From Massilia solisilvae (GTDB taxonomy: Bacteria > Pseudomonadota > Gammaproteobacteria > Burkholderiales > Burkholderiaceae_D): a DNA stretch of 64,000 nucleotides. The stretch spans positions 1,054,001 to 1,118,000 of the forward strand of contig NZ_JANUGV010000001.1 in NCBI RefSeq assembly GCF_024753215.1, in the 5' to 3' direction. The position numbers and the translations under genes are program-made. The notes under the pieces are model-generated. The model worked only from the letters and a program-made list of their open reading frames with translations, was not told where the DNA came from and searched no databases. Below are positions 59,277-64,000 of this stretch, piece by piece. Positions within the stretch are counted from its first letter, which is position 1, and each line of letters starts with the position of its first letter.

Positions 59277-60941
59277 ATGTCCCGTCCCGCACCGCTCCTC
59301 CGCCTGCTCGCGCTCACCGCGCTGGCCGGCTCCGCTGTCACGTCCGCCTGTGCAGCCGCTCCCGTCAAGTACGAGCAACCCAAGCTCGTGGTGGTCATGG
59401 TCGTGGATGGCCTGCCCAACGAACAGGTGATGCGCTACCGCGACCAGTTCGGGCAGGGCGGCTTTCGCCGGCTGATGGAGCAGGGCGCGTGGTTCACCAA
59501 CGCCTTCCAGGCGCACGGGGTGACGGTGACCGCGGTGGGACACACCGCTGTTTCTACCGGCGCCTACCCGTACCGCCACGGCATCATCAATAACTACTGG
59601 TACGACGCCAACGGCAAGAAGGTGTACTGCACCGAGGACGGCCGCTACCACTACCTGGGCGACGGTGAACAGACCCAGGAGCACGACGGCACCTCGCCCG
59701 CAAACCTGCGCGTGGACACCATCGGCGACCAGCTGCGCTATGCGACCGGCAACCAGTCCAAGGTGGTCACCGTGTCGGGCAAGGACCGCGGCGCGATCCT
59801 GCTCGCCGGGAAGACCGGCACCGCCTACATGTACATGGAGAAAACCGGCTCGTTCGCGACCAGCACCTTTTACATGAACGCGTATCCCGCCTGGGCCGAA
59901 CACTTCCGCGCCGCGCATCCGCAAGACCGCTACTACGGCCAGTCGTGGACAAAACTGCTGCCCGACGCCGCCTACGCGGGCGACGCGCCGTATGTCGAAC
60001 TAGCCAACGGCAAGCAGAGCCGGTTCCCGTTCGTGTTCAAGAGCGACAGCGGCAAGCCGGACGCGAAGTACTACGAAAGCCTGAAGGGCTCGCCGGCGGT
60101 GGACGAGCTGACGCTGGAATTTGCGCGCGCCGCCATCGAGGGCGAGAACCTGGGCCGCAACCCGGCCGGCGTGCCGGACCTGCTGGGCGTGAGCCTGTCC
60201 GCGCACGACATCATCAACCACTCCTTCGGGCCGGAGAGTGCGATGTCGCACGACCACCTGCAGCGGCTGGACCGCATGCTGGCGAACTTCTTCGGCTACC
60301 TCGACAAGCGCATCGGCCTGTCCAACGTGCTGGTGGTGCTGACCGCGGACCACGGCTTCACCAACTCGCCGGCGTTCTCGCAGGCGCGCCACATCGACGC
60401 GTTGCGGATCGATCCGGACAAGCTGGTCTCGGGTCTGGACAAGACGCTGGCCGACGCGTACCACGTGAACAAGCTGGTCAAGAGCTCGATGCTGCCGGAA
60501 ATCTGGCTCGATGATGGGCTGGTCGAGAAGAACGGCCTGTCGCGCGCGGACGTGGAGGCGCGCGCAGCGCGCTACCTGCTGGCACAGCCCGGCATCGCGC
60601 AGGTGTACACGCGCACCCAGTTCGAGAACGGCGGCGTGGGCCCGACGCGCCTGGGCCTGCTGATGCAGCGCGCCTGGAACCGCCAGCTCTCGGGCGACCT
60701 GATGGTGGTGCCGCAGCCGTATTCGCTGTTCACCAAGTCGCTCACCAACGCCTCGCACGGCGCACCGTACAACTACGACGCCAATGTGCCGCTCTTGATC
60801 ATGGGCAGCCGCTGGATCAAGCCGGGCACGTATGCGGGCTACACCGAAGTCGTGGACATCGCCCCCACGCTTGCGCACCTGCTGCGTGTGCGTCCGCCCG
60901 CCGCTGCGGAAGGGCGCGTGCTCGAGCAGGTGCTGCGCTGA
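59277..60941 (+). CDS. PafA-type alkaline phosphatase family phosphomonoesterase (exported)
   Basis: 554 aa. A signal peptide covers about residues 1-27. Metal ligands include D44 (VVDGLP) and the C-terminal DIINHSFG, TADHGFT and HG regions. The nucleophile is T85 in VTAVGHTAVSTG. N105/N106 and K169/R171 (SGKDRGAIL) match the Asn/Lys/Arg set of PafA by spacing (T79, N100, K162, R164). PafA enzymes hydrolyse phosphate monoesters without strong product inhibition. A Mg-independent two-zinc active site is therefore expected. It stands alone; the gap before it is 164 bp. Possible weak terminator at about 60949-60978. Confidence 0.85.
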   Translation: MSRPAPLLRLLALTALAGSAVTSACAAAPVKYEQPKLVVVMVVDGLPNEQVMRYRDQFGQGGFRRLMEQGAWFTNAFQAHGVTVTAVGHTAVSTGAYPYRHGIINNYWYDANGKKVYCTEDGRYHYLGDGEQTQEHDGTSPANLRVDTIGDQLRYATGNQSKVVTVSGKDRGAILLAGKTGTAYMYMEKTGSFATSTFYMNAYPAWAEHFRAAHPQDRYYGQSWTKLLPDAAYAGDAPYVELANGKQSRFPFVFKSDSGKPDAKYYESLKGSPAVDELTLEFARAAIEGENLGRNPAGVPDLLGVSLSAHDIINHSFGPESAMSHDHLQRLDRMLANFFGYLDKRIGLSNVLVVLTADHGFTNSPAFSQARHIDALRIDPDKLVSGLDKTLADAYHVNKLVKSSMLPEIWLDDGLVEKNGLSRADVEARAARYLLAQPGIAQVYTRTQFENGGVGPTRLGLLMQRAWNRQLSGDLMVVPQPYSLFTKSLTNASHGAPYNYDANVPLLIMGSRWIKPGTYAGYTEVVDIAPTLAHLLRVRPPAAAEGRVLEQVLR

Positions 60942-60982
60942 CCACCCCAAAGGGGCCCAAGGTCCGGGCTCTCTTTTCCGTG

Positions 60983-61267
60983 GAACGCGCGGTTTCGTAC
61001 GATTCCGTCCGATTTCGCTCGATAGCGCCACGAAAGCGCCCGATTTGCGCGCGAAATCGTACGTTTTGACGCCGAAACCAGCCGATTTCATCACGAATTC
61101 GCGCGATATTCATGAGCTCATAGCGGTTATATCCGTTTGGATATCGTTCAATTTCGGATTGCTTTCGCGCGCTTTCGGGCTGAAAGCGTGCGGTTTCGCG
61201 GCCAAATCGGGCGGCTTCGTACGCCTATCGGACGAAATCGTCTGAAATCGCGCGTTATCGGGCGATT
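60983..61267. repeat. Large imperfect inverted repeat of 21-bp units
   Basis: The 374-bp gap between the phosphatase and HD-GYP genes (60942-61315) holds this element. It is centred at about 61125: position p matches the complement of 122250-p. Over 61000-61059 the match is 45 of 60 bases, and similarity runs outwards to about 60983 and 61267. Each arm is built of 21-bp units, with CGA/TTTCG landmarks every 10-11 bp. Read outwards from the centre, the arms encode heptads such as RFRAQIG (minus strand, from ATG at 61113) and RFRGQIG (plus strand, from TTG at 61137). No Shine-Dalgarno site precedes either start. It is not annotated as coding. No known element recognised. Confidence 0.75.
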
Positions 61268-61315
61268 CGGAGAAATCGCAGGCCCGCACCCTGCAGGCCT
61301 GGTGACGGGGTGCTC

Positions 61316-63670
61316 TCAGTCGATCGCGAGGATGTGCGGCACGAAATCGCCGCGCTTGAGCACTGCGGTGCACGCCGCCACAACGGCCGGGTCGAGCTTG
61401 GTGCCGCTCATCTTGGCGATTTCGCTGGCCGCTTGCTCGATCCCCAGGGCAGGCCGATAGGGGCGGTCGGACGACATCGACTCCACGATGTCGGCCACGG
61501 TCAGGATGCGCGATTCGAGCAGGATCTGGTCGCCGCGCAGGCCACGCGGATAGCCTGAACCATCCAGGTACTCGTGGTGCTGGCGGATGATCTCCGCGAT
61601 CGGCCACGGGAAGGTGATCTTCTTGAGCACGTTGTAGCCGGCCTCGGGATGCTGCTTGATGAGGGCAAATTCGGCAGCGTTCAGTCGCGCCGGCTTGGAC
61701 AAGATCTCCGTGGGTACCTGAATCTTGCCGATGTCATGCACGATCGCACTCAGATACAAGGCGCGGATGCGTTGTTCGTCGAGGTGCATTTCCTTCGCGA
61801 TCATCACTGCCAGCTCCGCCACGTGCTGCTGGTGGCCGGCCGTGTAAGGATCGCGCTGTTCCAGCACGGCGCCGATGCCGGCAAGCGACTCCTCCAAAGC
61901 CCGTTCCAGCTTGTTGGCCTGGACGGCGACGTCTCGCAACGACTGGTCGTACGCTGTCTGCGTGCGGCGGGCCTGTACGCCGTAGGCGATCGAGTCGGCC
62001 AGTTCTTCGAACAGGCGCGTCTCTTCGGCGCCGAAGGCTTCCTCGTCACCGGAATAGATCGTGAGCGCGCCGACCGTTTCCCCATCCATTTTCAGCGGGA
62101 TGGCCGCCGACGAATGGATGCCGAATCCTGCCGCGCGCTCGCGCCACGGCGCAAAGGCAGGCCGGGCCCGCACATGATTGGCGATCTGCGTGGTCCCGGT
62201 CTGAAAGGCGATACCGGTCGGCCCATTGCCGTATGGCCCCGGCGCCCAGGTGACGACGAGGCCTTCGGCGTAGGGCGACGCCACGCCTGCGGTGGCGACG
62301 ATTTGCACCGAGTGTGCTTCGTCATGCACTTTCCATCCGATCCAGCTCAGGAGGTAGCGCGACTCGGAGGTGATGGCTTCGCAGACCGCCTGCAGCATCT
62401 CCTGCTCGCTTTTGGCATAGACCATGGCCTTGTCACTCAGGCTAATCGCGCGCAATGCCCAGTTGAGCTGCTTCGTTTCTTCGAGCAGGCGCCGTTGTTC
62501 GGTGATGTCGGCGTAGATGCCGACCACCCCTTCGACATTGCCGTCGGCATCGATCACCGGGGCCTTGGTGGTTTGCACCCAGCTCTGCTTCCCACACGGT
62601 GACACGTACGGTTCTTCCATCGTGATCGACGTCTTCTCGTCCATCACCTTGCGGTCCGCGTTGCGATAGCTTTCAGCAAGCTCTTTCGGGAAGAAATCCA
62701 GGTCCGTCTTGCCGTGGACATCCTCAGGGGTCACGCCGATGTCGGCGGCAAAGTTGGCATTGCACGCGACAAACACGGACTTCGCATCCTTGATGAAGAT
62801 CCGTTGAGGCAGATGGTTGACCAGCGCGTAGAACTTGTTCTCGTTCAGCTCTTTGGACTGCGCCACGATGACGGTCCGGAGCATGCGGATGTACTCGCCC
62901 TCGTAGTGGCGCACCAGCTCGTCCTCGCCAAAGACACCCACCAGCTCGCCCAGGCTGCCGAGGATGGGAATGATGGCCAGGCCAGGTTCGAGCAAGAGGC
63001 GCGCGGCTTCCGCGGACGATGCGCTCTCGCGCAGGGTAGCGCTGCAGGGGTGCATGAGATCGGCGATGCCCAGGCCAGTTTCGCCGCGGCCAATGGTGCG
63101 CACGACATCCTTCTCGGTGATGATGCCTGCCGGAGTGTCGCCATCGACCACGATCAGGTAGCGCTCGCCGCTGGTGGCCATTTGCTTCAACGCGTCCTCC
63201 AGCGTCGAGGTTGGCGGCAAGCGGCCGAAGCGGGTTTTCATCAAATCTCCGACGGTGGCCATCCCCAACAGGCCGGCAACGCCGTCGATCTTGCGGAAGT
63301 CCGATTCGCTCAGCATGCCGGCCGGCCGCCCGTGCTCATCCACAACGGGCAGGTGGTGAATGCCGTGTGCGAGCATCAGCTGGAATGCCTCGTGGACCTC
63401 AGCGTTTGCCGCGACCGACATCACCTGCCCACTCATCAGCTCGGCCACCGCCTGCTGCGGGGCGATGCCTTTTGCAAGCTGGCGCACCAGGTCGTGCTCG
63501 GTCAGGATGCCGGCCACATCCTCGCCGCGCATCACCAGGGCACTCGAGGCGCCGGCAGCGGTCATCCTGGACGCCGCGTCGGCGAGGGTGGTGGTGTCGT
63601 TGACGATCACAAAGTCATCGCTCATCAGCGATGCGACCTGGTGTTCGGTAAATTTTTCCGAGAGCTTCAT
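61316..63670 (-). CDS. CBS-PAS-GAF-HD-GYP protein (putative c-di-GMP phosphodiesterase)
   Basis: 784 aa, cytoplasmic, with no membrane segments. Order: four CBS motifs in two pairs (about 8-135 and 150-275), a PAS domain (about 295-410, ending in VVGIYADITEQRRLLEE), a GAF domain (about 430-570) and HD-GYP (about 600-784). HDIGKIQVP and HHEYLDGSGYPRGL are the metal-site and GYP motifs, so c-di-GMP hydrolysis is expected. CBS pairs usually bind adenosyl nucleotides, adding an energy or nucleotide input (inference). The ATG at 63670 overlaps the stop of the upstream HD-GYP gene by 4 bp. Confidence 0.9.
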   Translation of the reverse strand: MKLSEKFTEHQVASLMSDDFVIVNDTTTLADAASRMTAAGASSALVMRGEDVAGILTEHDLVRQLAKGIAPQQAVAELMSGQVMSVAANAEVHEAFQLMLAHGIHHLPVVDEHGRPAGMLSESDFRKIDGVAGLLGMATVGDLMKTRFGRLPPTSTLEDALKQMATSGERYLIVVDGDTPAGIITEKDVVRTIGRGETGLGIADLMHPCSATLRESASSAEAARLLLEPGLAIIPILGSLGELVGVFGEDELVRHYEGEYIRMLRTVIVAQSKELNENKFYALVNHLPQRIFIKDAKSVFVACNANFAADIGVTPEDVHGKTDLDFFPKELAESYRNADRKVMDEKTSITMEEPYVSPCGKQSWVQTTKAPVIDADGNVEGVVGIYADITEQRRLLEETKQLNWALRAISLSDKAMVYAKSEQEMLQAVCEAITSESRYLLSWIGWKVHDEAHSVQIVATAGVASPYAEGLVVTWAPGPYGNGPTGIAFQTGTTQIANHVRARPAFAPWRERAAGFGIHSSAAIPLKMDGETVGALTIYSGDEEAFGAEETRLFEELADSIAYGVQARRTQTAYDQSLRDVAVQANKLERALEESLAGIGAVLEQRDPYTAGHQQHVAELAVMIAKEMHLDEQRIRALYLSAIVHDIGKIQVPTEILSKPARLNAAEFALIKQHPEAGYNVLKKITFPWPIAEIIRQHHEYLDGSGYPRGLRGDQILLESRILTVADIVESMSSDRPYRPALGIEQAASEIAKMSGTKLDPAVVAACTAVLKRGDFVPHILAID

Positions 63671-64000
63671 GCGTGAGCCAAATGTTTTTCGCCGGCCCCG
63701 GCCGGACGGGCCAGCCACTGCCAGTCGCGCTCGATGAGCCTGATGCAGGCGTTGACGACATCCGCGTCGTATTGCTGGCCCCTGCCGGCGTTCAGTTGTG
63801 CGATCACGCTGTCGATGCTGGCGGCGCGCCGGAAGGGCCGGTGCGACAGCATCGCTTCCACGCTGTCGGCCACGCGAATGATCTTTGCCTCGGGCAGGAT
63901 CTGGTCTCCCACCAGCCCGCGCGGATAGCCTGTTCCGTCCACGTTCTCATGGTGCTGGAACACGATTTCGGCTATCGGCCAGGGAAACTGGATGTCGCGC
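63667..64000 (-). CDS. HD-GYP-domain protein, C-terminal part
   Basis: Only the last 110 or so codons are visible; the frame is open to the window edge and the start lies beyond. The text IQFPWPIAEIVFQHHENVDGTGYPRGLVGDQILPEAKIIRVADSVEAMLSHRP closely matches the same region of the downstream HD-GYP gene, including HHENVDGTGYPRG. A second c-di-GMP phosphodiesterase domain is therefore expected. It is translationally coupled (ATGA) to the CBS-PAS-GAF-HD-GYP gene. Confidence 0.88.
   Translation of the reverse strand, partial: RDIQFPWPIAEIVFQHHENVDGTGYPRGLVGDQILPEAKIIRVADSVEAMLSHRPFRRAASIDSVIAQLNAGRGQQYDADVVNACIRLIERDWQWLARPAGAGEKHLAHA

Follow-up and report, generated by a model that had tools for sequence, protein, structure and literature searches.

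A phased, inverted repeat array in Massilia solisilvae: a probable orphan of a predicted RHH-RAMA autoregulator

Closest described systems and how the locus compares

In the ParR-parC partition systems, as the cited accounts describe them, a ribbon-helix-helix (RHH) repressor binds 10-11-bp repeats arranged in two groups that flank its own promoter, and repression is brought about by looping (PMC5016525; PMC9426499). The RHH protein Omega (ParB) of pSM19035 is described as binding cooperatively to the contiguous short repeats of parS, which overlap promoters and are present as several sites per replicon (PMC9499535). CdbA from Myxococcus xanthus, also of the RHH family, is proposed in the source cited to be nucleoid-associated (PMC7156744). 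The RAMA domains of MPND and CcrM are reported to contact the DNA backbone, with no contact being base-specific, and a preference of MPND for 6mA was not confirmed in that account (PMC9963953). Among the papers listed in searches of open-licence PMC, no RAMA domain fused to an RHH domain was found, and neither was a description of the family or of the arrays discussed here.

The locus compared with these systems lies in the window, by which is meant the whole stretch of 64,000 nucleotides of Massilia solisilvae DNA that was analysed. Some 285-290 bp of this window are probably an orphan copy of the phased, inverted protein-binding array of a predicted RHH-RAMA autoregulator, left behind by the loss of the gene. 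The gene-linked arrays resemble the ParR-parC system of plasmid R1 (type II partition), as described, in that phased repeats stand on both sides of a promoter, here one predicted from sequence, in about half of the family. Unlike the repeats of that system as portrayed in the cited work, which are direct, the two groups found here are inverted relative to each other. The RHH-RAMA gene also differs in being chromosomal and solitary, with a product in which RHH is apparently fused to a RAMA-like domain, and in leaving orphan arrays. Nor is there a recurrent partner gene: no neighbouring gene family extends beyond 5 of the 30 clusters of family members, the commonest being a generic-looking ABC ATPase, and no motor of the ParM, ParA or TubZ kind emerged from these neighbours, which were compared among themselves and not with motor models. 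The inverted arms and the lack of a recurrent partner both speak against counting the RHH-RAMA arrays among the partition systems.

Omega/parS, in the cited account, is built on 7-bp heptads, whereas half-units of 10-11 bp are found here, and no ParA partner was noticed. CdbA is one of the proteins that the N-terminal model of the family matches in fold; it is described, however, as a protein of many sites and moderate specificity, in contrast to the long palindromic arrays seen here. The likeness to MPND and CcrM lies in their RAMA domains, which give the best fold matches of the C-terminal domain.

Architecture and copies of the window array

The array occupies an intergenic gap of 374 bp between a phosphatase gene (ending at 60941) and a convergent HD-GYP gene (ending at 61316; Table 1), the product of which we take to include CBS, PAS and GAF parts. 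A reading of the sequence alone, made before this analysis (the sequence-only reading), had described an imperfect palindrome centred near 61125, and this is borne out. The axis falls exactly at that position and, without any gap, 96 of 149 positions are paired, against 48% and 47% at the runner-up centres; the palindrome score is 55.4, whereas 300 dinucleotide shuffles average 11.5 and never exceed 19.6. No other palindrome in the 64-kb window is as strong; the best unrelated ones score 33.6 and 29.2 and look REP-like. Short inverted pairs of the GTCGTCCCCGCGGAGGCGGGGACCCATG type at window positions 2413, 15471 and 47321 likewise look like ordinary REP repeats.

Table 1. Features of the window array and its surroundings (positions are those of the window)
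Feature	Position	Strand	Remarks
Left neighbour, PafA-type phosphatase (name from the sequence-only reading)	59277..60941	+	Ends 39 bp before the array; orthologue adjoins the M. agilis array
Left arm, six 21-bp units	60981..61106	-	Outward consensus TCGNGCGNTTTCGNGCNSAWA; 93.5 bits with model R1 in the own genome, the model being built from the window array and three other loci
Centre, 37 bp, axis 61125	61107..61143	.	Promoter-like sequence sits here in gene-linked relatives
Right arm, six 21-bp units	61144..61269	+	92.5 bits with the same model R1 in the own genome
TTGAAC, -35-like hexamer common to the gene-linked form	61146..61151	-	By-eye comparison with the L009/L046 alignment
Right neighbour, HD-GYP protein (name from the sequence-only reading), convergent	61316..63718	-	ORF; orthologue in M. 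agilis

The tandem 21-bp units with landmarks every 10-11 bp that had been proposed are present, six to an arm, although the true unit is smaller: the basic repeat measures 10 or 11 bp, and each 21-bp "heptad" consists of two such half-units. Autocorrelation of the array at lags 10, 21 and 42 is 0.41, 0.45 and 0.38, where shuffles give means of 0.25 and maxima of 0.34-0.35, and the value at lag 10 thus nearly matches that at lag 21. Across 32 units from four loci, two of which are orthologous, one C and one CG step are invariant and one further G varies once, within the consensus TCGNGCGNTTTCGNGCNSAWA. Left and right units of equal rank match at 0.674 in the window array, compared with 0.593 for units of other ranks, and 5 of 120 permutations are as good; for the copy on contig C34 of genome G050, 1 of 120 is as good. 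Since this excess is modest, the palindrome arises mainly from a single unit that both inverted arms repeat. No TCTAA partner of the TTGAAC hexamer was seen at the usual distance, and for this reason the promoter of the window array looks decayed. Judged by the strand of the hexamer, a gene lost from this site would probably have been directed leftwards.

Plain blastn recovered few copies, namely the M. agilis orthologue, parts of a copy on contig C12 of the own genome and one piece in G050, and an arm model, R1, was therefore needed. It was built from four loci (the window array, M. agilis C1, own-genome C12 and G050 C34), whose matches to it are therefore built in. With a threshold of 35 bits, R1 detects 14 loci, spread over 6 of the 62 genomes of the genus; 11 of these loci have both arms, oriented outwards. 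The gap between the arms measures 37-48 bp in the 9 loci whose arm matches both start at model position 1 or 2; the two other two-arm loci (G011 C32 and G058 C4) have partial arm matches and did not contribute to this range. Matches below about 25 bits across the genus are probably due to chance. Homologous copies therefore exist, on C12 of the own genome and in other genomes of the genus. The statement of the sequence-only reading that it knew of no described element of such form agrees with the open-licence PMC papers that were listed.

Within the own genome (G000), R1 finds two full arrays and one half-array of 48.8 bits, after which scores drop to 18.2 bits. The second full array, on C12, adjoins an intact family gene and lies directly upstream of it; blastn pieces shared by this copy and the window array are 68-76% identical. 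In each of the six array-bearing genomes there is a close family gene, whole or as a remnant. Orphans with no trace of a family gene, as at the window array, occur on G050 C34 and G011 C32, and these two seem to share one flanking MFS gene.

Further arrays were noted in passing. The half-array of the own genome (C29; L045 3634-3714; 48.8 bits) is of the window type and lies just downstream of an ORF. Contig C26 of the same genome (L165 1502-1688) carries an orphan palindromic array of the L068 type, that of a different paralogue, with a score of 44.8; its centre is without a promoter and it adjoins a LysR-type gene. M. terrae (G058) has palindromic arrays at about 4058 of L054 and about 4057 of L055; their motif (GATTCG, ATCGAGC) is related yet distinct, and neither stretch yielded a family gene.

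The orthologous array of M. agilis (G001) occupies the same gene junction, with the orthologues of both neighbours alongside, and in an empty-site comparison the junction was seen in no other genome. Window and M. agilis arrays share 226 identities over 281 bp with no gap, a divergence of 19.6% against 13.1% and 14.0% at the four-fold sites of the neighbouring genes. The unit phases that carry invariant bases are unchanged between the two (10 of 10 each; 60 of 60 over six unchanged phases), but these six phases were picked after inspection of the same sequences and the argument from landmark conservation is accordingly partly circular. Of the C12 gene of M. agilis, just about the first 25 codons are left while its array is kept, so that M. 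agilis retains both arrays, the window-type site and C12, despite the gene stub. This shows how an orphan arises. Because the window array has diverged faster than four-fold sites and M. agilis keeps its arrays without an intact C12 gene, it is doubtful that the window site still has a function.

The associated gene family and its predicted protein

The gene that begins beside several of the arrays encodes a protein of about 140-165 amino acids. Of the 62 genomes of the genus, 8 contain the family by tblastn (G000, G001, G006, G011, G045, G046, G050 and G058), a set that includes all six array-bearing genomes; G006 and G046 have distant members only. A scan of 84,980 species, represented by one genome each, returned 326 relatives. 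Among the best 80 of these, 73 belong to Oxalobacteraceae, namely Massilia, Duganella, Pseudoduganella, Rugamonas, Janthinobacterium, Undibacterium and one further member of that family, and the other seven to Nitrosospira, Stenotrophobium and five metagenome-assembled genomes. The family is patchy, as it was found in 5 of 300 genomes of an order-wide sample, with the own genome counted. Phages yielded no member and plasmids a single weak match from Rhizobium. Members searched singly matched nothing at E 1 in Pfam and NCBIfam (three members) or in PHROGs and PADLOC (four members), and a sequence search of the PDB with the family protein gave two matches, the best at E 1.

Arrays are a frequent feature upstream of these genes. 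The comparison took in 79 members, that is, the best 80 of the 326 relatives less L096, which is without the motif, and these include many mutual orthologues (30 clusters at 60% identity). A palindrome scoring at least 20 lies upstream of 39 of the 79 family genes but of just 8 among 262 neighbouring genes, which leaves 40 family genes without one; at an earlier cut, the same threshold gave 38 of 80 upstream and 0 downstream, where downstream sequence was available for 79 of the 80. L086 from M. terrae, a close and intact relative (60% identical to P0001), has an upstream palindrome of just 10.4, and R1 finds a single weak arm of 21.1 bits beside it. Mean autocorrelation at lags 10 and 20 over 78 loci is 0.335 and 0.306 upstream compared with 0.263 and 0.264 downstream. 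The motifs differ among subfamilies (GAGCA, CGAGACA, TCGTGCG and TAGAGCG among others) and the form is alike.

The motif TTGA[AC][ACT] is found near the axis of 19 of 38 strong arrays, where 200 letter shuffles give 3.1 on average and 7 at most, and is followed, as judged by eye, by TCTAA in many of these 19. To judge by the sequence, the two together look like a promoter. The distance from axis to start codon is fixed within a subfamily, for example at -52.5 or -59. Array similarity is correlated with protein similarity over 75 loci (Mantel r 0.26 when N-terminal parts are compared and 0.28 with C-terminal parts; P 0.005, 199 permutations), and since both partial coefficients remain (0.18 and 0.21), the array-reading domain is indistinguishable by this test. 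At L075 (1100-1330), a long GGGCAGC/GGCGGCA microsatellite lies directly upstream of the family gene and array; the best palindrome of that locus was rejected as its array, being this GGGCAGC microsatellite.

The family protein is likely to consist of an N-terminal RHH domain and a C-terminal RAMA-like domain, as indicated by structural models. In the AlphaFold2 model of L087 (pLDDT 85), residues 64-142 align with MPND (7ydw, Z 7.9, rmsd 2.3 Å over 72 aligned residues; 7ydt, Z 7.7) and with CcrM (6pbd, Z 7.5, 75 aligned), and the matched parts of both proteins are described as RAMA domains (PMC9963953). Residues 4-54 of the same model match NikR with Z 5.4. A monomer model of just the N-terminal part of a second member (pLDDT 83.7) displays the helices of an RHH fold but not its beta strand; its fold matches include NikR, ORF56, SvtR, CdbA and CopG at Z 3.6-4.5, and of the 11 fold-match rows obtained in all (Z 3.3-4.5), 10 are RHH proteins. 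Two sequence models, made with 47 members and 35 N-terminal parts, were compared with Pfam. Three of the 35 N-terminal parts hit RHH_1, at best with E 0.0011, and the majority of members are without a match to any Pfam RHH model; the Pfam RAMA model is absent from the 12 families listed for the 47 members, and DUF2924 appears in 2 of the 47 (best E 0.075). Foldseek alone returned nothing at E 0.001 for either the L087 or the N-terminal model. With this null result and Z values below 8, the RHH and RAMA-like assignments are to be regarded as likely, not proven. A subfamily made up of L062, L068, L074, L075 and L078 bears a conserved, helical-looking C-terminal extension (...CMSETL..ALALV...ERR...RR) that is absent from the short members.

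Competing explanations of the array

The sequence-only reading had offered three explanations, of which a phased binding array is the sole survivor, with binding as a prediction. On the likeness to ParR-parC, the array would be a cooperative, centromere-like operator through which the RHH-RAMA autoregulator represses itself. Dimers of the protein would bind next to one another on each arm, all on the same face of the double helix, and the bound arms would fold the promoter between them, leading to repression of the protein's own gene. The RAMA-like domain could serve to hold the backbone or a modified base, or to link the arms. The window copy, which has neither a gene nor a recognisable promoter, would most likely be a remnant of gene loss of the kind seen at M. 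agilis C12, and the intact C12 protein of the own genome may still bind it as a distant site. If this is true, an unexplained repeat becomes tied to an undescribed and repeatedly duplicated family of predicted DNA-binding proteins, and a bacterial setting is gained for learning the function of the RAMA domain. With a series of paralogues, many of which have their own array, one could test directly how an RHH protein and a multi-site DNA target co-evolve.

The alternative that survives best, quite possible though short of probable, is that the array is a decaying remnant that persists by inertia after loss of its gene and has no present function. This would agree with the decayed promoter, with the process displayed at M. 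agilis C12, with a divergence (19.6%) above that of the neighbours' four-fold sites, and with the lack of any family-gene trace adjoining the window array, the best tblastn match (E 0.55) being elsewhere in the window. Such decay is harder to reconcile with 281 bp free of indels and with unchanged landmark bases, the choice of which was partly circular, or with the strong symmetry (score 44.8) of the C26 orphan, an array of another type.

A more far-reaching proposal is that RHH-RAMA proteins, each with an inverted array of its own, make up a motor-less, centromere-like system of the chromosome. It would involve a paralogue-specific repeat code and the coating of DNA by a helical filament, with orphans serving as further anchoring sites for chromosome organisation or for the reading of DNA modification. 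This proposal is advanced tentatively and seems rather doubtful.

Greater doubt attaches to an array that is transcribed and whose long stem is the functional object, be it a leader RNA, an antitoxin RNA or a bidirectional terminator, and this is improbable. Both strands of the window array do fold far more stably than shuffles (z -8.4 and -8.0), and gene-linked arrays extend to the region of the start codon. The compensatory changes that such a stem should display are, however, nearly absent: of the 96 Watson-Crick pairs of the window array, 76 are unchanged in M. agilis, 19 are broken by one change (G·U being counted as broken) and 1 is compensated, or 1 in 20 of the changed pairs. Were an RNA stem under selection, G·U mismatches should be favoured, yet the gene-sense strand of 38 related arrays, those of the 80 relatives with a palindrome score of at least 20, has 171 G·U against 167 A·C in 2800 positions, which is to say equal numbers. 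This lack of strand asymmetry also separates the arrays from type III toxin-antitoxin systems, in which a tandem repeat upstream of the toxin gene is selected as RNA. The C12 copy, taken with its flanks (501 nt), folds no better than shuffles (z +1.35), and Rfam gave nothing at the gathering score for the window array, its single match reaching 18.1 bits against a cut-off of 70. The hairpin at a convergent junction that had been suggested is thus not upheld, and the convergent position is itself not general, as gene-linked copies sit upstream of a gene.

Less probable still is a REP- or MITE-like mobile repeat that spreads palindromic copies. Genomes do differ in where their arrays are located, but the copies per genome are few (two full ones in the own genome, five loci in G050), those of the own genome are merely 68-76% identical in blastn pieces, and array types track subfamilies of a gene that has no transposase similarity in the libraries searched.

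The last of the alternatives concerns coding. The outward heptads and the ATG and TTG start codons of the sequence-only reading do exist in the window, and both frames are open over five heptads and still open across the compared stretch of M. agilis. In the M. agilis orthologue, however, the ATG is replaced by CTG and the TTG by TCG, both putative starts are gone, and no conserved reading frame with start codons is found. Synonymous changes, expected of coding sequence, are the minority, with 10 of the 42 changed codons synonymous and 32 non-synonymous, and codon position 2 changes fastest (9, 23 and 15 changes at positions 1, 2 and 3; 23 of 47). In the C12 copy, a stop codon interrupts the heptad frame within the first unit of both arms, and further out the frame is open. 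Since the starts are lost, most changed codons are non-synonymous and position 2 is the fastest, the window array is taken as not coding, and an inverted duplication that made two tiny, divergent genes for coiled-coil peptides can be set aside. The 21-bp period follows from two half-units of 10.5 bp, and heptad peptides predicted in intergenic DNA can be shadows of 10.5-bp DNA phasing.
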